From Polaromonas sp. UBA4122 (GTDB lineage Bacteria; Pseudomonadota; Gammaproteobacteria; Burkholderiales; Burkholderiaceae_C), in assembly GCA_002381615.1 (NCBI GenBank), contig DFWY01000035.1, positions 8,341 through 43,466 on the forward strand: DNA of 35,126 nucleotides, read 5' to 3'. The notes beneath the pieces were generated by a model. The model was not told where the DNA came from. It saw nothing but the letters and a program-made list of their open reading frames with translations, and did no database searches. Position 1 is the first letter of the stretch; each line of letters starts with the position of its first letter. The translations under genes were made by a program, and so were the position numbers. Shown here piece by piece: positions 3,187 through 15,250 of this stretch.

Positions 3187-4742
3187 ATGACGCGCTCAAG
3201 CATTGAAGCAACATTGACGGCAATCTGAGCCTGTAAGTCGCTGGCTTCTATGTTGAGTAGTTCAAGCCCTTCATTCAACTCTTCCAGCCGCTCCACAAAA
3301 TCAAACTCATCCGCCGCCCTTGCCCCCACGCCGACATAGCGCCCCGGATTCAGACTCCAGCCCTGCGCCTCAATCTCGGCCCGCGAAGCCGCCTTGCACA
3401 GCCCCGCCACATCGGCATACACGCCGCCCGGAAAGCGATCAATCAGCAGCGCCTGACTGCCCGCGTCGAACTCCGGCGCTTCTCCGCGATGCAGCCGCAC
3501 CACGTTGGCCAGCAACTCCAGTTGTTCGGGCGTGAACTCGCGCGTCGAGCGAGTGACCTGTTTGAAGAAGGGCCGCGCATCCAGAAACAGCACTTGGTCC
3601 TTGCGCGGGCTGGTCTTGGGCAACTTGGCTTTGGCCTTGTCAAAAAACCACAACGTGCAGGGCAGCGCGACGGTGTAGAAAAAGTTGGAGCCAATGCTGA
3701 CGATCACGTCCACGCTGCCGCTCTGGATCAGCTTTTTGCGGATTTCCATCTCGCTGCCCCGGGCGTCGCCCGCCGAGTTGGCCATCACGAAACCGGCGCG
3801 CCCGGTGTCGTTCAAGGCCGAGTGAAAGAGCTGAATCCACAGGTAGTTGGCGTTGTCGGTGCTGGGCAGGCCGAGCGGGAAGCGGGCGTCGTCCTTGATG
3901 CGGTCTTTGTCCACGCCCGAGACATTGAACGGCGGATTCGCCATCACAAAATCGAACTTGCCCAGCACCTTGTGCGGGTCTTCGTAGTAGGTGTTGGCCT
4001 CGCGAATGTCGCCCGACAGGCCATGCACCGCCAGGTTCATCTTGGCGAGCTTGACGGTGTCGCTGGATTTTTCGGTGCCGAACACGGTCAGCTCGGTGGT
4101 GGCGTTGCGTTTGTGGCGCTGCACAAAAGCGGCCGACTGCACAAACATGCCGCCCGAGCCGCAAGCCAAGTCGCCAATGCGGCCGTGGTAGGGCTGCAAG
4201 ATTTCCACAATCAGTTTGACGATGCTGGTGGGGGTGAAGAACACGCCGCCCTTTTGCCCCTCTTTCAGCGCAAAGTTGCCGAGGAAGTATTCATAGACCT
4301 TGCCGAAGGCGTCGCCATCCAGATCGACCGCCGCTAACAGGCGCAGCAGTTCGACCAGCGTGGCGTTGGGCAGCAGGTTGTAGCCGCGCGGCAGCACGCC
4401 CTGCAACTCGGGGTTGTGCTGCTCCACCAGCGCCATGGCGGTGCCAATCGCCTTGCCCAGGTTGGCGCTTTCGGTCAGGGTGACCAGATACGAAATGCGG
4501 GCCTCCAGCGGCAAGTAGAGCACGCCCTCGGCGTGGTAGTCCATGGCCTCGCGCTCGTCCGCCGGGATGCCCTTGGCGGCCAGCGCGGCCTCAACCTGGG
4601 TGAAGCGCTTGTCGGCATGGCGCAAAAAGATCAGGCCCAGCACGGGCGTGGAAAATTCGGAAGGTTTGAGGCCGGTGTTGGCCCAGAGTTGGTCAGCGGT
4701 AGCCCAAAGGCGGTTTTCGACTGCGACGAGATCAGATGCCAT
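3183..4742 (-). CDS. hsdM: Type I restriction-modification DNA methyltransferase subunit HsdM
   Basis: A 519-residue N6-adenine DNA methyltransferase. An N-terminal helical HsdM_N region (about 1-140) precedes the catalytic N6_Mtase domain. The SAM-binding motif I is [10 protein letters not shown] (about 191-200), and the catalytic motif IV is NPPF (269-272) within [11 protein letters not shown]. The C-terminal helical region ([18 protein letters not shown]) fits the part that packs against HsdS. Length is typical of the family. With HsdS it would form the M2S1 methyltransferase. The start at 4742 has only a weak ribosome site (CAGGGA), but the N-terminus [13 protein letters not shown] aligns with the family. 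No hsdR is present in the window; it may lie left of position 1. Confidence 0.96.
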
Positions 4743-6174: not shown

Positions 6175-6879
6175 TCAAGCCCGCTGCGGAATCCCAATCC
6201 CGCGCACCACAGCCGGCCGTGCCACAAACGCCGCCAGTGCTCGCGTGACATGCGGAAAATCGTTGATGCCCACCAGCTCACCCGCCTCGTAGAAGCCGAT
6301 CAGGTTGCGCACCCAGGGAAAGGTGGCGATGTCGGCGATGGTGTAGGCATCGCCCATGATCCAGGTGCGGCTGGCGAGCCGCTGGTTCAGCACGCCCAGC
6401 AGGCGCTTGGCCTCCGCCACGTAGCGGTCACGCGGGCGTTTGTCCTCATAGTCTTTGCCAGCGAACTTGTGGAAGAAGCCCAACTGCCCAAACATCGGGC
6501 CAATGCCGCCCATCTGCCACATCAGCCACTGGATCGTCTCGTAGCGCTGCGCCGCATCCTGCGGGATGAATTGGCCGGTTTTCTCGGCCAAATAGATCAG
6601 AATCGCGCCGGACTCGAACAGCGCCAGCGGCTTGCCACCGGGCCCGTTGGGGTCGAGGATGGCCGGAATCTTGTTGTTGGGGTTGAGCGACAGAAATTCC
6701 GGCGACAGCTGGTCGTTGGTCTCGAAGCTGACCAGATGCGGCTCGTAGGGCAGGCCGGTCTCTTCCAGCATGATCGACACCTTGACGCCGTTGGGCGTGG
6801 GCAGCGAGTAGAGCTGCAGCCGCTCGGGATGCTGGGCGGGCCATTTGTGGGTGATGGGGAAGGTGGAGAGATCGGTCAT
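6175..6879 (-). CDS. Glutathione S-transferase family protein, YfcG/YghU (nu-class) type
   Basis: A 234-residue protein with a thioredoxin-fold N-terminal domain and an all-helical C-terminal domain. The segment TPNGVKVSIMLEE near residue 30 and SPNNKIPAI-like SLNPNNKIPAIL, followed by LFESGAILIYLAEKTG, are the glutathione-site signature of the YfcG/YghU group. That group uses Thr/Asn rather than Cys or Tyr and has disulfide-bond reductase activity with glutathione. WLMWQMGGIGPMFGQ is also typical of the group. I chose the ATG at 6879 because AAGGAA precedes it and the upstream 16 codons look like leader sequence. It probably has its own transcript; no functional link to the flanking defence genes is apparent. 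Confidence 0.9.
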   Translation of the reverse strand: MTDLSTFPITHKWPAQHPERLQLYSLPTPNGVKVSIMLEETGLPYEPHLVSFETNDQLSPEFLSLNPNNKIPAILDPNGPGGKPLALFESGAILIYLAEKTGQFIPQDAAQRYETIQWLMWQMGGIGPMFGQLGFFHKFAGKDYEDKRPRDRYVAEAKRLLGVLNQRLASRTWIMGDAYTIADIATFPWVRNLIGFYEAGELVGINDFPHVTRALAAFVARPAVVRGIGIPQRA

Positions 6880-6984
6880 GGGGGTTCCTTGGGATGGGAG
6901 CGGGCGGCAGCGCGATACTGCCCGCATCTGTACATCGACGCGGGCCTACCTGTAGTCCACCGTGCGTCAGCGAGAGCAGCACGA

Positions 6985-8667
6985 CTACTTGTACCACTCC
7001 GCCTTGATCGCTGCTATCTCCATCTCCTTCCATTCTTCTTTCCACAATTCCCAGTAAGGTATGTCGTTCGAAGAAGGAGCATTCGAGCACGGATCAATTT
7101 GAACGATGGACGGCAGAATAATTGACTCTCCGACTAGCAAGGCTTCGCCTTGCCTAAACGAGGTCATCTTGTCGATCAACGAACCGAGCGAGTCCGGCAG
7201 CAGTTTCTTGACGTACCCCTGATCCACAGGATTCGTAAGCCGCATCGCGATGAAGTTATTGCACTGTGAGAATATCGTCTCCGAAATTTCGGACGGCCTC
7301 TGGCTGGCCAACAGCAAGGTGACCCCGTATTTCCGGCCTTCCTTCGCGATTCTCTCGATTGATATCTTCGAAGATCGATATTTTGAAAGCTCGCTGTTCG
7401 GGACGTACTTGTGTGCCTCTTCGTACACCAGGAGAATTGGGACGTCGTTATTGATCTTTTCATTCGGATCCTTCGCGCATCTCAGGCGCTTATAGAAGTA
7501 TCCGTATTCGAAGACCAGCCGCGAGATAAGCGACACCGTGATACTCAAGACTTCGAACGGCACACCGCTCAGATCGATCACGGTCACGTTTGATTTGTTC
7601 AGGGATGAGTACCCGAGTAGGGTCTGAAGGGTCTCTTCGAATGTGATACTTTTCGATTTCTCGCCCAGAAAAAAGTCCAGCCTGCTGTCATTGACCTTGT
7701 TTTCCAAGCGGCTAACGAAATTGGTGAGCTTCCCATGAAGGCTGCCTTGGGTCATTTTCGGTTGTCCGGCTTTTTCTTTGTTGCTGGCGGCGTATACCTC
7801 GCCAGAGTCGATATATTCCGTATTCTTTTCAATCGCGTATTTGAGAACATTTCGAATATCGAACAGGCACGGAGAATCCAGGTGGATCTTCTGCTTGTCG
7901 CCCTCAGTTCCTTTGAAATTTGCCCGCCGATCCTGAACGATCGCTTCCTTGAATATGTTTCTTTGGTTGTGGTCGTTAGCTTCAGTATCCAGGAAGAACT
8001 CTTCCAGTTCTTCGCTGTTCAGCATCCAGTAGGGCAACGTCAAGTTGGAAATGTCGATGAAATTCGCATCTGGAAAAGCCGATTTGTATTCGGAGTGGAT
8101 ATCAAAAATGATTACATGTGAGTTGTTGAGCGAGAAATTCCCGTTTTTCTCAGCGACCGCGTTCTGAATGATTTTCGCTACCGTATGAGATTTGCCAGAT
8201 CCAGTGGAACCAACGATGGCAATGTGTTTGTTGAAGAACTTGTTTCCGTTTATCGGAACCTTCACTTCTTTGTTGGAGGCGAGGGTTGAGAAGCAGAAAC
8301 TCTCAGACGGTTTTATTGAGTCTTCATAAATCTTCTTGATATCGTCAATCGTGGCTGGTTGGACCTCCTTGGGGGGTATGGCAAGCGAATCGCCTCCTCG
8401 TTCGAACTTTCCGTCCCTGAGTATGCCCAGCGGGAAAGCCTCGATGACATAGTCCCTCTTCCCTTCGCTGACGGCGATTTGGAAATTCTCGATGATCGCG
8501 ATTAGTACTGCATTTTCGTTGTCGGCGATCTTCAAATACGACCCGACCTTCAAGGACTCTTCCGCGATTTTAAAGTTTTCGAGATCATCTACGACGATCC
8601 TGACCTTATCAGGAAAGACCGCGATTACCTGCGCGTTGATGTTGTCAGTCGTAGTTTCGTTTTTCAT
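6985..8667 (-). CDS. herA: HerA-type hexameric ATPase / DNA translocase of a two-gene defence unit
   Basis: A 560-residue protein of the FtsK/HerA superfamily. The N-terminus (about 8-65) resembles the HAS-barrel of HerA. The RecA-like core has a Walker A GSTGSGKSHT (153-162), a Walker B ILLVYEEAHKYVP (411-423) with the catalytic Glu, a candidate arginine finger region AKEGRKYGV, and the sensor motif ASQRP (454-458), all in HerA order. HerA proteins form hexameric rings that pump DNA and activate partner nucleases. The start follows the upstream nuclease stop with one base between them (TAATATG), so the two are translationally coupled. Base composition is visibly lower in GC than the flanks (one 60-base line I counted at 8101 is 42% GC), suggesting horizontal origin. 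The antiphage role is inferred from the partner. Confidence 0.9.
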   Translation of the reverse strand: MKNETTTDNINAQVIAVFPDKVRIVVDDLENFKIAEESLKVGSYLKIADNENAVLIAIIENFQIAVSEGKRDYVIEAFPLGILRDGKFERGGDSLAIPPKEVQPATIDDIKKIYEDSIKPSESFCFSTLASNKEVKVPINGNKFFNKHIAIVGSTGSGKSHTVAKIIQNAVAEKNGNFSLNNSHVIIFDIHSEYKSAFPDANFIDISNLTLPYWMLNSEELEEFFLDTEANDHNQRNIFKEAIVQDRRANFKGTEGDKQKIHLDSPCLFDIRNVLKYAIEKNTEYIDSGEVYAASNKEKAGQPKMTQGSLHGKLTNFVSRLENKVNDSRLDFFLGEKSKSITFEETLQTLLGYSSLNKSNVTVIDLSGVPFEVLSITVSLISRLVFEYGYFYKRLRCAKDPNEKINNDVPILLVYEEAHKYVPNSELSKYRSSKISIERIAKEGRKYGVTLLLASQRPSEISETIFSQCNNFIAMRLTNPVDQGYVKKLLPDSLGSLIDKMTSFRQGEALLVGESIILPSIVQIDPCSNAPSSNDIPYWELWKEEWKEMEIAAIKAEWYK

Positions 8668-8668
8668 A

Positions 8669-9880
8669 TTAAATCACTCCCTTGATGTCAGACAATTGCT
8701 GTACTTGGATCTTGACGTGGCTTATTGACGGGTTCTCGTATGCGAAGTAGCTTTGCCCAAGGTGGAATTGGTAGATTTTTCTAGTCTTCACAATCGATTT
8801 CACGGTTTCCTCCAAATTACTTAACGAGTTCAGTATCTTGATTTTTATGCCATTGACGTGGGTCGCCTTCTGAGCGATTGAGTTGGCGCTGAAGTCCGCG
8901 TCCTTGTAGTCGTATCCATCTACAAACTTGAACCCCTCCTCTCTGAGTTCATTTTTCAGAGTAAGCAGTTCCCCTTCAGGAATGCCTTGGATGAACAGGT
9001 ACGGACAGAACGAGTTTGGTTCGAGTTTTAAGGTTTTCGACCATTTCTTGGACAGGACGAAAACGAGTTCTTTCAATTCATCGCGGATATACGAAGCCGA
9101 ATCTATTTCGACGAGGAAGAAACGCTCGAACGGCGAAATGTTGAGGGCTGTGAAATATTCTTTGCGAAGCGCAGCCAGGTGCATCTTTTTCCCTTTCTTC
9201 TGCACGAACCATTCGTTGAACAGAATGCTGGAAGTATTCACTCTTTGCAAGAACGCTTTCTTTGTGATCGTGCGGTCGGCGGGACTTGGCCGGATCGACA
9301 GTTCCCTTATGACGCGAAGTGCGTTGTTGTAGTAGAAAAATTCCGCGGAGAACGGCTTGCAATCGAACGTCACTTGCAGCTGCTTGATAACCTCCTGAAA
9401 TTGCTTGTCGAACTCCAGCGCGTTTATGTCCACAGTCAGGAGCGCTAGGAATTCGGTCAGATCGCAATCGGTGAGGCCCAGCTCAACATGGCGGCAATGC
9501 TCTACCTTCTTGGTCGTGTACGTGAGGAAGTGCTTTTTTAGGAACTCGATGTCGATGCCGTCGATTAGTTTCTCTTGGCCGGAAGCGTAGTGTCCCCGAA
9601 TTACATACGATACTTTCGGCTTGGTTCCGGCCTTGGCTTCCTTGAAGTGGGACAGCATGTATCTCATTGCCTCCTTGATGACCGAGTGGTTGTATTCCGT
9701 CTTGGCGTAATACTTGCACTGGACCGCCGTCACGTCGGATGCTGTTCGTAGGTCTATGTCCTCGACGCATTCGATCGAAATCGAATCGGTGTCGTTTGCC
9801 AAGCCCAACACACTCCGTATCGACATGTCGAATTGGTAGAAATATCCTCTTATCGTATCAACGGCACTTCGGTCAGTCAT
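8669..9880 (-). CDS. DUF4297/Cap4-like dsDNA endonuclease, HerA partner
   Basis: A 403-residue protein. The N-terminus carries the layout of DUF4297/Cap4 nucleases: TIRGYFYQFDMSI (9-21), then ISIECVEDIDL with acidic residues E37, E40, D41 and D43, then VQCKYYA with Q54 and K56. This matches the E...QxK form of the PD-(D/E)xK fold. The remaining 340 residues are not recognised and may mediate oligomerisation or HerA binding. The start at 9880 is set by a strong GGAGAA ribosome site; a longer reading from 9928 lacks one. The coupled HerA gene downstream makes this a HerA-DUF4297 arrangement, a class reported to protect against phage. The nuclease assignment rests on motifs alone; a different nuclease family with the same motif layout is possible. 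Confidence 0.78.
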   Translation of the reverse strand: MTDRSAVDTIRGYFYQFDMSIRSVLGLANDTDSISIECVEDIDLRTASDVTAVQCKYYAKTEYNHSVIKEAMRYMLSHFKEAKAGTKPKVSYVIRGHYASGQEKLIDGIDIEFLKKHFLTYTTKKVEHCRHVELGLTDCDLTEFLALLTVDINALEFDKQFQEVIKQLQVTFDCKPFSAEFFYYNNALRVIRELSIRPSPADRTITKKAFLQRVNTSSILFNEWFVQKKGKKMHLAALRKEYFTALNISPFERFFLVEIDSASYIRDELKELVFVLSKKWSKTLKLEPNSFCPYLFIQGIPEGELLTLKNELREEGFKFVDGYDYKDADFSANSIAQKATHVNGIKIKILNSLSNLEETVKSIVKTRKIYQFHLGQSYFAYENPSISHVKIQVQQLSDIKGVI

Positions 9881-9961
9881 ATCTTCTCCAAGGACAAATT
9901 TTGGCCATTTCTTGTCGGGACTCGCCAAAAAGCTGGCGCGATGCGACTGCGATTTCTCTTT

Positions 9962-11779
9962 TCATCCATGCAGCTTCTTGCCAAACTCCCCATCCCCACT
10001 CGCCGTAATCACCAGCCGATGCGTCGCCCGCGTCGCCCCCACATAAAACAACCTCGCCTCCTCCCGCTCATCCTCCCCTTGCGCAGGCATCTGCCCCACC
10101 CCCATCAGCGCCACCACCGGAAACTCCAGCCCCTTGCTGGCGTGCATGGTCAGCACCTTGATGGTGTCGTCATTGGGGTTGAAGCTGCCTGCGCCTTTGC
10201 GCACCTGATGCGGCAGCTGCCAGCGGCTCAGTGCTTGGGCGCATTCGTCCATCTCGTCGTAGCGTCGGCAAATAACGGCCATATCGCCCCACGCGTGGCC
10301 CTCTTGGTGGGCGGCGTTCAGCAGATCGGCAATCTTGGTCGCCTCGGCGCGCAGGTTGGGCAAGCGGATGATCAGCGGTGCCTCGCCATCGCGCCCGCAG
10401 CTGATGGGCTTGAGCAGCGGAATGCCGTCATCGTCTTTGTCGTCCGCTGTCAGCAGGTCCGCCGCAATCAGGCTGGCGGTTTGCAAAATCTGTTTGGTGT
10501 TGCGGTAGTTGATTTTCAGAATCGTGGTGCGGCCTTGCGCCTGCACGCCGACGCTTTTGAAGCTGAACTGTTTGCTGCGGCTGCGCTCATAAATGCTCTG
10601 CGCATCGTCATACAGCAGCAACAGGCTGTTGGTCGTCGGGTCCACCATTTGCGTGACGAGCTTGAGCCACTCGGGGGCAAAGTCGTGGCCTTCGTCAATG
10701 AGGATGGCCTGATACTGGCCCGACGGAATCTGCTTGCGGTCAACGCCGTGGATGACACGTTGCACAAGCTCTACAACGTACTGATCGCGCCCTATCTGTC
10801 CAGGCAGCGTTTGACCATACGTGACCAGTTGGTCTCGGCACCATTTGTGAAAATGCCGCGCATGCACCATGCTGGAAAGGCCCTTGGCCTCCATCACCGA
10901 GGCGAGCTTCACCGCCAGCGGCTCGTTGTAGCAAAGAATGAGGATGGGCTTGGACGCTGCCGTGTGCGCCTTGGCCAGGTACTCGGCGCGGTAGCCGAGG
11001 ATCATGGTTTTGCCGGAACCGGCCACGCCGTGAATCACGCGGTGGCCGTCGCCCAAGGACCGCGCCAGTTGCTCCTGCTGCAGGTCCATCACGCGCATGA
11101 TGCTGGGCAGTTCAGCCTCGCCATCGCTGTCGTCAAACAGTGCGCCCTGCGTTTGCACGCGCACTTCGGGGAACATGATCCAGCGCACGCGGTCGAGCTG
11201 CGGCAGCGACATGACGCCGCGCATCATGTAGGGGAACATGCCCCACAGGCGGCTTTGCAGGTCTTCGGCTTCCACTTTTTCCAGCATTTCGTCGCTGCAA
11301 ACAACCTGATGCGGCTCAATGACCTGATCCAGCTGGCCTTCCGTGAATTGCTTGCGCGTGATGTTGGGAAACACGACGCCATAACTCCAGGGAAAGGCCA
11401 GCCCGCCTTGGTACTTGCCGTCGGCATGCACCAACTGCGGGTCGCGCTTGAGGGCGTCTACCACCGCATGCGCATGTTGCCGGGCTTGTTCAGCGGGGTT
11501 GGGCGGGGTCTTCAGCATGCCGTCAATAAAGACCTGCCAGCTTTGCTTGTCGGCGTGCTGAATGATTTTTGTGCTCCAGTCCTTCACCTCCAGAATCAGC
11601 AGGCCACGCCGGGGATGCATCACCACAAAGTCAGGGTGTAAATGCCTGGGGCCCACCGGCACGTCGTACCAGAGCAGGTAGTCGTCGTCGAGTTTTTGTT
11701 CAAGCCGTTCGGCCAGTCGCCGTTCGCCGGGTGTCATGCGCGAAACGCAGGTACCGATTGCAGGAATAAGAGTCGCCAT
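9962..11779 (-). CDS. NERD nuclease domain fused to a UvrD-like SF1 helicase
   Basis: A 605-residue two-domain protein. Residues 15-100 fit the NERD (nuclease-related) domain, with HPDFVVMHPRRGLLILEVKDW supplying D50, E64 and K66 of the restriction-endonuclease-like site. The helicase part has Walker A GVAGSGKTMI (251-260), Walker B ILIDEGHDF (359-367), motif IV/V-like MHASKGLEFPVV and motif VI ARLFYVGATRATH. It probably unwinds and cuts nucleic acid, in DNA repair or phage defence. It is GC-rich like the host chromosome. Its stop is 81 bp upstream of the DUF4297-like start on the same strand, with only a weak 5-bp hairpin (9923-9938) between them, so co-transcription with the HerA pair is possible but unproven. 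Confidence 0.9.
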   Translation of the reverse strand: MATLIPAIGTCVSRMTPGERRLAERLEQKLDDDYLLWYDVPVGPRHLHPDFVVMHPRRGLLILEVKDWSTKIIQHADKQSWQVFIDGMLKTPPNPAEQARQHAHAVVDALKRDPQLVHADGKYQGGLAFPWSYGVVFPNITRKQFTEGQLDQVIEPHQVVCSDEMLEKVEAEDLQSRLWGMFPYMMRGVMSLPQLDRVRWIMFPEVRVQTQGALFDDSDGEAELPSIMRVMDLQQEQLARSLGDGHRVIHGVAGSGKTMILGYRAEYLAKAHTAASKPILILCYNEPLAVKLASVMEAKGLSSMVHARHFHKWCRDQLVTYGQTLPGQIGRDQYVVELVQRVIHGVDRKQIPSGQYQAILIDEGHDFAPEWLKLVTQMVDPTTNSLLLLYDDAQSIYERSRSKQFSFKSVGVQAQGRTTILKINYRNTKQILQTASLIAADLLTADDKDDDGIPLLKPISCGRDGEAPLIIRLPNLRAEATKIADLLNAAHQEGHAWGDMAVICRRYDEMDECAQALSRWQLPHQVRKGAGSFNPNDDTIKVLTMHASKGLEFPVVALMGVGQMPAQGEDEREEARLFYVGATRATHRLVITASGDGEFGKKLHG

Positions 11780-12135
11780 CCGGGAATCACCAACCTCTCA
11801 ACACATCTAATAACAGTTTGTGACAGGCATCATGCCGGTAAGCGGGTCATATAGCCAGCGCTGCGTTGCTGCAAAGGAACTCGGCGGCACGAATGATTAC
11901 GGGGAAATATGTTCCCAAACACTTGTGTGACCTCGCTGAATCTGTCGAACCGGCGCGGGTTGTCATGGCCTTTGCGGGGTGCGCCGACAGACTCTGTGGG
12001 AGCTGGCCTACTTACCACTGAGCGGGCACCGGTATCGTGGTAATTGGTTAGCGCCTAACGACGAAACGCTGACCCGCGACTCGTCGCGCCAGGCTTGGCC
12101 TGGATTTATCAAGTCGAAATTTCAAGGAGTTGAAG
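11780..12135. other. 356-bp divergent intergenic region
   Basis: Lies between the oppositely oriented NERD-helicase and CsbD genes, so it should hold both promoters. Visible elements are a short inverted repeat GTTAG-CGC-CTAAC at 12047-12059 and an AAGGAG ribosome site at 12124-12129 for the CsbD gene. A minus-strand open frame of 62 codons (11830-12018) shows no recognisable protein features and no ribosome site, and I do not call it a gene. I could not identify a convincing -35/-10 pair. Confidence 0.5.
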
Positions 12136-14483: not shown

Positions 14484-14629
14484 GGGTGTTTAAAAGTGAT
14501 GGTGTCCAGACCTTCAGCGCGGTGCTGCAGTTTGCAGTGTCATCTTAATCCCGGCCGCAAGTGGGCGACACCCGTTGGGGCGGTTTCGGTTATCGTCAGC
14601 TCCACACCCAGTTCACCGCGGAGTTGCCC

Positions 14630-15250
14630 GTGCCCAATGCCATTCACTTTTACGAACCCCGTGACGGCCACCGCCTGCCGCACGATCCTTTCAATGCCAT
14701 CGTCGGGCCGCGCCCGATCGGCTGGATTTCGTCGCGCAGTGCAGCGGGCGCGCTGAACCTGGCGCCCTACAGCTTTTTCAACGCCTTCAACTACACGCCG
14801 CCCATCGTCGGCTTTGCCAGCGTTGGCCACAAAGACACGGTGCACAACATCGAGCAGACCGGCGAGTTTGCCTGGAACCTGGTGACGCGCCCGCTGGCTG
14901 AGGCCATGAACCAGACCAGCGCCGCGGTGCCGCCCGAGGTCAGTGAATTCGCTCTGGCGGGCCTGACGCCGGTGGCTTCGCGCCTGATTGCGGTGCCGCG
15001 CGTGCTTGAGAGCCCGGTCTCGTTTGAGTGCCGCTGCACGCAGATCGTGCAGCTTCAGGCTGCCAGCGGCGACAAGCTGCCTACCTGGCTGGTGCTCGGC
15101 GAGGTGGTGGCGGTGCATATCGACCAGGCTTTGCTGAAAGACGGCGTGTACGACACCGCCGCCGCCGGACATGTGCTGCGCGGCGGCGGCGCGGCGGATT
15201 ATTTCACCATCGGGCCGGAGCAGTTGTTCCGCATGCGCCGCCCCGCCTGA
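14630..15250 (+). CDS. Flavin reductase family protein (DIM6/NTAB type, FMN-binding split barrel)
   Basis: A 206-residue protein starting at a GTG preceded by GGAG at six bases' distance. The N-terminus HFYEPRDGHRLPHDPFNAIVGPRPIGWISS is the signature of the FMN-binding flavin-reductase-like family, and LAPYSFFNAFNYTPPIVGFAS and EFAWNLV follow as usual. Such proteins bind FMN and either reduce flavin for a partner oxygenase or act on a small substrate; no partner oxygenase gene is adjacent. A longer reading from 14561 adds 23 residues unlike the family and is rejected. It converges on slyD with 42 bp between the stops. Confidence 0.9.
   Translation: MPNAIHFYEPRDGHRLPHDPFNAIVGPRPIGWISSRSAAGALNLAPYSFFNAFNYTPPIVGFASVGHKDTVHNIEQTGEFAWNLVTRPLAEAMNQTSAAVPPEVSEFALAGLTPVASRLIAVPRVLESPVSFECRCTQIVQLQAASGDKLPTWLVLGEVVAVHIDQALLKDGVYDTAAAGHVLRGGGAADYFTIGPEQLFRMRRPA

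Follow-up and report, generated by a model that had tools for sequence, protein, structure and literature searches.

Which defence system, if any, is formed by two adjacent genes coding for a DUF4297-type nuclease and a HerA ATPase in Polaromonas sp. UBA4122, and what does their position directly behind a gene for a NERD-UvrD helicase signify? The questions are raised by a DNA stretch of 35,126 nt, called here the window (assembly GCA_002381615.1, contig DFWY01000035.1, positions 8,341–43,466; its genome is labelled G000, other genomes and loci being given G and L numbers). There is little doubt that the two genes make up a complete antiphage system of the HerA-DUF4297 kind, like that of Escherichia coli represented by PDB entries 8XAU–8XAY, and that the same position behind the helicase gene holds varied cassettes in related genomes, the majority of the scanned ones giving matches to defence models. 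The pair itself is ordinary and already classified, adding a rare new member to a known defence system with a solved structure. The setting matters more than the pair, and what deserves following up is the position behind the NERD-UvrD helicase.

The HerA-DUF4297 pair

Both open reading frames (ORFs) are intact, adjacent and co-directional on the minus strand, with the nuclease gene first (Table 1). The best choice of the nuclease start is the ATG at 9880, giving a protein of 403 amino acids (aa); a TTG further upstream would extend it to 419 aa. The nuclease stop codon (8669–8671) and the ATG of herA (8667–8665) are spaced by one base without overlap, so that the TAATATG, described in an earlier note on this DNA as coupling the two genes, is exact. 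The nuclease scores 546 bits against the NCBIfam equivalog NF042945 (DUF4297_antiphage; cut-off 300 bits, residues 4–403), covers positions 1–404 of the 404 of the PADLOC DUF4297 model with its residues 1–403 (E 1.2e-164), and aligns over residues 3–402 with the E. coli DUF4297 protein of PDB 8xav_G (E 2.9e-86). HerA scores 933 bits against the equivalog NF042944 (HerA_antiphage_2; cut-off 850 bits), aligns over residues 8–560 with E. coli HerA of PDB 8xau_A (E 3.4e-208), and is matched by the PADLOC HerA model over residues 6–560 and by DUF87 of Pfam. Since the family scores exceed curated cut-offs, the pair is not a chance association, and the earlier note, which had seen here a two-gene unit of a reported antiphage system with a complete HerA, is borne out on this point by both cut-offs and by the near end-to-end match to the solved E. 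coli complex.

The residues expected of both enzymes are in place. In HerA, the Walker A motif GSTGSGKS with K159 and S160, the EE pair at 416/417 and the RK pair at 445/446 are kept, and it is on these six residues that E. coli K157, S158, E426, E427, R455 and K456 fall; their roles (Walker A/B, arginine finger) are those given in the E. coli study (PMC11291478). In the nuclease, the predicted ExxEDxD...QxK layout was found as E37..E40-D41-x-D43...Q54-x-K56, all six residues being invariant in 10 of 10 aligned nucleases (that of the window, L001 and eight plasmid loci), the most distant of the nine homologues having 25% identity. Q54 and K56 correspond to E. coli Q53 and K55, the positions mutated in PDB entry 8XAY. 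Profile and PDB searches place the protein among the PD-(D/E)xK nucleases, its family membership being upheld by homology.

Table 1. Features of the window at and around the HerA-DUF4297 pair
Feature	Position	Strand	Evidence
DUF4297-type PD-(D/E)xK nuclease, gene 1 of the pair	8669–9880	-	403 aa; NF042945, PADLOC and PDB matches
HerA ATPase, gene 2 of the pair	6985–8667	-	560 aa; NF042944, PDB 8xau_A
Translational coupling TAATATG, nuclease/HerA	8665–8671	-	sequence
Nuclease active-site stretch, residues 40–56 (E40, D41, D43, Q54, K56)	9713–9763	-	unchanged in all 10 nucleases aligned
C-terminal assembly domain of the nuclease, from about residue 230	8672–9193	-	alignment to the E. coli C-terminal domain, boundary G224
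NERD-UvrD helicase-nuclease, constant gene before the slot	9962–11779	-	605 aa; Pfam NERD and UvrD; PADLOC C3a187 NERD+UvrD, E 4e-169
Left cassette edge, 81 bp from helicase stop to DUF4297 start	9881–9961	-	homology of relatives ends at the helicase end
Right cassette edge, HerA stop to outermost GST-side homology (6913)	6914–6984	-	eight GST loci compared
GST-family gene, right flank	6175–6882	-	Pfam GST_N/GST_C

The nuclease family is accessory, as judged by the few genomes that carry it: 1 of 101 relatives, 4 of 399 genomes of the order (two over the cut-off) and 4 of 398 genomes of a phylum sample (one over the cut-off), the samples overlapping and each count including the window genome. 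One scan of a genome-contig collection gave a single relative, L001; no match to the nuclease was found in a phage collection, and a viral contig collection gave one pattern match and no confirmed relative. Among the plasmids of PLSDB, 19 match the nuclease at E <= 1e-5. The eight best were read, and in seven of them the next gene after that of the nuclease is annotated as DUF87, ATP-binding or HerA; in the eighth, L104 (Rhizobium rhizogenes pColt5.8a), HerA is split by an IS66 insertion into pieces at 7225–7614 and 10661–11935. Altogether, HerA adjoins DUF4297 in 12 of 12 other loci examined, the one split by IS66 included and the marginal match L101 left out.

Two other readings of the pair have to be weighed against this evidence. 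The earlier note regarded the 340 C-terminal residues of the nuclease as unrecognised and proposed that the pair may be a divergent HerA-DUF4297 subtype, for which that part would provide a trigger of its own. A Pfam search of the 403-aa protein did return no family at E <= 1, Pfam DUF4297/Cap4 included, and the 25% identity to the farthest aligned homologue would also agree with divergence, but the NCBIfam, PADLOC and PDB matches all extend through the residues in question. The boundary of the E. coli nuclease domain was placed at G224 (An et al. 2024, PMC11291478), which in the PDB alignment falls on G230 of the window nuclease, and the domain past it aligns in sequence with 8xav_G without large gaps through residue 402. 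That study describes this domain as holding the nuclease layers together and binding the HAS domain of HerA, and the likeness to Cap4 and Avs3 goes back to a structure comparison that it made with the E. coli enzyme. By alignment, the 340 residues are thus the remainder of the nuclease domain together with the known assembly domain, and the proposal of a divergent subtype consequently fails; it is opposed also by a Paraburkholderia plasmid pair with 66% (DUF4297) and 86% (HerA) identity, whose nuclease is already recorded as antiphage-associated in RefSeq, and must be considered highly improbable. Still harder to credit is a role of the pair in housekeeping processing of DNA ends, in the style of archaeal HerA-NurA. 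The HerA core is shared and repair HerA models do give weaker matches, but these stay far under their cut-offs (129 bits where 970 are needed, and 127 where 800 are), as opposed to the score over cut-off with the antiphage model; moreover, the nuclease family is accessory and the pair sits in an acquired cassette of low G+C content.

A probable exchange slot behind the helicase gene

Positions 6985–9880 have a G+C content of 0.48, and the remainder of the window one of 0.61. At the helicase side, the window and 13 other loci of the same genus match one another until the last codons of the helicase gene, after which each diverges. At the other side, the homology of eight GST loci (seven from other genomes and a second copy in the window genome) ends between positions 6870 and 6913, i.e., no more than 31 bp ahead of the GST start and at least 72 bp from the HerA stop. 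These limits on both sides delimit the acquired stretch to the pair with short edges, in agreement with the low-G+C acquired cassette between a GST gene and a NERD helicase that had been suggested before. GST homologues at E <= 1e-60 are present in 29 of 61 genomes, that of the window included. In the window genome (G000) and four others of its genus (G016, G024, G029, G046), a single contig carries both the helicase and the GST gene, and the genes that separate the two differ; in G016 the helicase has behind it a type I methylase, found by its similarity to the window HsdM (37%) and not by PADLOC.

The DNA behind the helicase gene appears to be a slot in which defence cassettes are exchanged. 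The helicase loci came from three overlapping samples of 101 relatives, 399 genomes of the order and 399 of the family; in the family sample, the helicase is found at E <= 1e-180 in 63 of 399 genomes. One locus per genome was measured in 100 genomes, 71 of them with a helicase at least 60% identical to that of the window; exclusion of loci with a flank shorter than 1 kb (7 of 71, and 2 of the 29 less similar) left 64 and 27. Two helicases stayed outside the count, a second intact one in G892 (G+C content 0.49 behind vs 0.69) and that of G870 (0.65 vs 0.67, no drop). With a G+C drop defined as a 1.5-kb flank at least 8 G+C points below the helicase, a drop was found behind the helicase in 32 of the 64 loci and in front of it in one (sign test, p 9e-10; 31 loci have the drop behind alone and none in front alone). 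Among the other genes of these loci that code for at least 250 aa, it is seen in 25 of 266, and in 12 of 119 when the helicase plus 5 kb is left out (vs 32/64, p 4e-9). The low-G+C downstream neighbours are co-directional with the helicase in 28 of 32 loci, with gaps from -41 to 227 bp, as compared with 16 of 32 in the remaining loci, 28 of 63 upstream neighbours and 224 of 350 other neighbouring pairs (28/32 vs 224/350, p 0.005). The 67 first downstream genes fall into 63 homology clusters, and there are four sets of loci in which a homologous upstream neighbourhood is combined with different genes behind the helicase: G000/G016/G029/G008 (with an MFS gene within 4 kb), G026/G004, G049/G056 and G032/G916.

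The content of the slot was assessed by a PADLOC scan of one gene behind the helicase in each of 30 genomes (match threshold E <= 1e-5). A match was obtained in 23 of them. Of the controls, two of ten genes neighbouring the helicase upstream and two of ten that come first behind a helicase with no drop gave one (p 0.002 for each comparison with 23/30). The control genes were a random draw from, respectively, 28 and 30 candidates of at least 150 aa; the two matches in the latter group are Fic and GajA. In 19 of the 30 genomes the match is at E <= 1e-30, and the cargo comprises, besides the DUF4297-HerA pair of the window genome, SIR2 followed by a HerA homologue (G1037, G231, G914, G1084), OLD (G014, G354, G1193), Mokosh MkoA (G004, with a PLD-like match just under the cut-off in the next gene), DRT UG36 (G024), Drt3b (G1170), Lamassu LmuB preceded by LmuA (G951), ApeA (G1157), PD-T4-1 (G1027), PDC-S06 (G916, G944), PDC-S37 (G835), a type I methylase (G1053) and a type II methylase (G1159). 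Weaker matches, from 1e-8 to 1e-21, were given by G026, G006, G048 and G153. The PADLOC scan gave no match in seven of the 30 slot genes (G049, G029, G032, G046, G930, G003, G1156). By Pfam, that of G930 has NACHT plus SNaCT5 and that of G1156 a GIY-YIG domain; that of G003 shows a marginal bacterial SH3 match only, and the first slot genes of G049, G029, G032 and G046 have neither a PADLOC nor an above-cut-off Pfam match.

Several points weigh against this interpretation. Half of the 64 loci have no G+C drop behind the helicase, and with helicases 40–60% identical there is no effect, the drop being found behind in two and in front in two of the 27 loci. The 68 first upstream genes form 61 homology clusters, a diversity close to that downstream. 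The scanned genes were hand-picked as the main gene of each cassette rather than taken at random, being the second gene in G024, G354, G153 and G951 and the third in G944, and those of G835 and G1170 lie on the strand opposite to the helicase. Genes were called with a home-made caller and the calls are crude. As to the pair itself, the nuclease structure predicted from an alignment of two rows was too poor to use, with a mean pLDDT (predicted local distance difference test) of 38.5. Because the upstream diversity is nearly equal, diversity alone is no proof of a slot; the helicase sits in many genomic places, and it is the asymmetry in G+C content, strand and defence content that argues for one.

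The cassettes are most likely exchanged by ordinary homologous recombination in their flanks, and they may be transcribed through from the helicase gene. A wider proposal, made tentatively and with the balance of probability against it, is that in the bacterial family concerned the NERD-UvrD gene is an immunity platform, whose 3' end docks swappable small defence cassettes (HerA-DUF4297, SIR2-HerA, OLD, DRT, Mokosh, Lamassu, ApeA, NACHT, restriction-modification and several unknown ones) in one operon, with the helicase as a landing site plus promoter or as a shared helper. If so, the cassettes with no PADLOC match would be new defence systems. A constant helicase followed by a changing defence cassette offers a simple search rule for antiphage genes, namely to read the gene behind the helicase. 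Slot genes with no PADLOC or informative Pfam match lie at L035:1348–2889, L082:6066–7418, L039:5840–8022 (where PADLOC was run on the first of three genes), L097:14108–15451 and L143:2594–4183; they are candidate new defence genes. Searches of open-licence papers gave no title or abstract describing a defence slot anchored by a NERD-UvrD gene, a negative that carries little weight.

The possibility that insertion behind the helicase is guided by a site-specific signal was considered and rejected: the best 8-mer within 150 bp after the stop codon occurs in 5 of 32 loci, the maximum in shuffled sequences being 4, and the best 7- and 9-mers in these loci are not above shuffles. No direct repeat of at least 7 bp, taken at the longest length that matches, is common to the two cassette edges in the window, which have a single inverted match of 8 bp, and synonymous sites at the helicase 3' end show no unusual conservation. 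The 3' end of the helicase gene (window positions ca. 9965–10072 and homologues) is G-rich. In its last 36 codons, GGG makes up 131 of 276 glycine codons, the respective figures being 417 of 2789 for the rest of the helicase gene and 143 of 709 for the ends of other genes. A G-quadruplex consensus occurs at the helicase 3' end in 12 of 71 cases vs 3 of 231 in the comparison set.

Further defence-like genes lie on the other side of the GST gene. The minus strand of the window between positions 202 and 6032 codes for Fic, type I HsdM and HsdS, a Schlafen-AlbA protein and a RecG C-terminal-like protein, which gives the region the look of a defence island. Contig C44 of the window genome has two copies of the GST gene, at 3354–4055 and 14518–15222 (the second corresponding to window positions 6178–6882), the two copies having 87% DNA identity over 813 bp. 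They flank the Fic/HsdM/HsdS/AlbA/RecG-C block plus a 1091-aa ORF of HsdR-like look (a candidate), and the Fic-to-RecG-C block may have come in by recombination between them.

The helicase as a helper or a landing site

The helicase loci are a natural set for asking whether the helicase is a common helper of the genes behind it or a mere landing site. In the former case, DUF4297-HerA would be part of a three-gene system with the NERD-UvrD helicase as a functional partner, shared by many downstream effectors. This would fit with the common strand and the 81-bp gap in the window, with the short or negative gaps and the co-directionality (28/32) of low-G+C downstream genes, and with the occupation of the same position by four SIR2-HerA pairs. 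It would also fit with the fact that all 71 aligned homologues keep Walker A and the NERD residues D50, E64 and K66, owing to which the helicase is, on sequence grounds, probably an active enzyme. Nevertheless, a helicase homologue is found in none of the nine fetched flanks of DUF4297-HerA loci (L001 and eight plasmid records), and the E. coli complex was reported to work with two genes (PMC11291478). Four of the six broken or partial helicases that have readable DNA behind them (G037, reduced to residues 482–603, G423, G933 and G992) still have DNA poorer by 9–28 G+C points behind them, unlike those of G095 and G1186, although some of the breaks may be assembly errors and the comparison is one of G+C content. 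Eight of the ten sampled helicases with no drop lack a PADLOC match in the gene behind. As the pair occurs elsewhere with no helicase, the helicase as a third gene of the system was rejected as the principal explanation and is considered unlikely. We lean towards a landing site with possible read-through expression rather than a helper. The helicases of G153, G1023 and G892 are intact, since the in-frame stops listed for them fall past the gene end.

Distant helicases, 38–49% identical, were read in annotated form on five plasmids out of 21 matched plasmid records, and in these five no recognisable defence gene lies directly behind on the same strand. On a Vibrio plasmid, a gene for an N-6 methylase lies behind the helicase on the opposite strand. 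On the plasmid of Nostoc sp. PCC 7524 (L209), the operon of a type III-B CRISPR system (Cmr) has behind it a NERD-UvrD helicase with 49% identity. The PADLOC label of the helicase, C3a187, is presumably a name for a type III ancillary gene, and the Nostoc setting fits it.

Mechanism by homology and relation to known systems

The E. coli homologue allows a mechanism to be proposed by analogy. Twelve nuclease subunits, arranged in two layers, would use their C-terminal domains to form a complex with a HerA hexamer; upon assembly HerA would become planar and the nuclease domains paired, by which ATP hydrolysis and promiscuous cleavage of double-stranded DNA would be switched on. Phage and host DNA would then be destroyed and the infected cell sacrificed. 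In the E. coli study, the nuclease and the ATPase are reported to be very weak alone and active once assembled, host and phage DNA being degraded, and both activities to be required for defence by the two-gene complex (PMC11291478); the HerA-DUF4297 system is also the subject of a 2025 review (PMC12198126).

The closest solved relative is the E. coli DUF4297-HerA system (WP_016239654.1/WP_016239655.1; PDB 8XAU–8XAY; PMC11291478). Both proteins align with it almost fully, with nuclease E40/D41/D43/Q54/K56 and HerA K159/S160/E416/E417/R445/K446 at equivalent positions; the differences consist in sequence divergence and in a HerA stretch, approximately E. coli residues 284–315, that aligns poorly. 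Among the eight best plasmid loci, the closest is the Paraburkholderia sabiae pair WP_201658797.1/WP_201658800.1 (L103), with the identities given above and the same gene order. However, it is carried by a conjugative plasmid, where a DUF2130 gene precedes it, and there is no NERD helicase homologue within the 13.2-kb stretch. The SIR2-HerA systems of G1037, G231, G914 and G1084 share the slot, with a HerA homologue behind the effector and directly 3' of the helicase, but their effector is SIR2, not a nuclease, and their HerA homologues were identified by sequence clustering alone. In having variable defence genes next to constant sequence, the locus resembles defence hotspots with constant flanks, such as those of Pseudomonas aeruginosa (PMC10250203), in which variable defence genes lie between constant flanks; it differs from hotspots of the P. 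aeruginosa type in that one flank is an accessory NERD-UvrD helicase and the variable genes are on the 3' side of that helicase.

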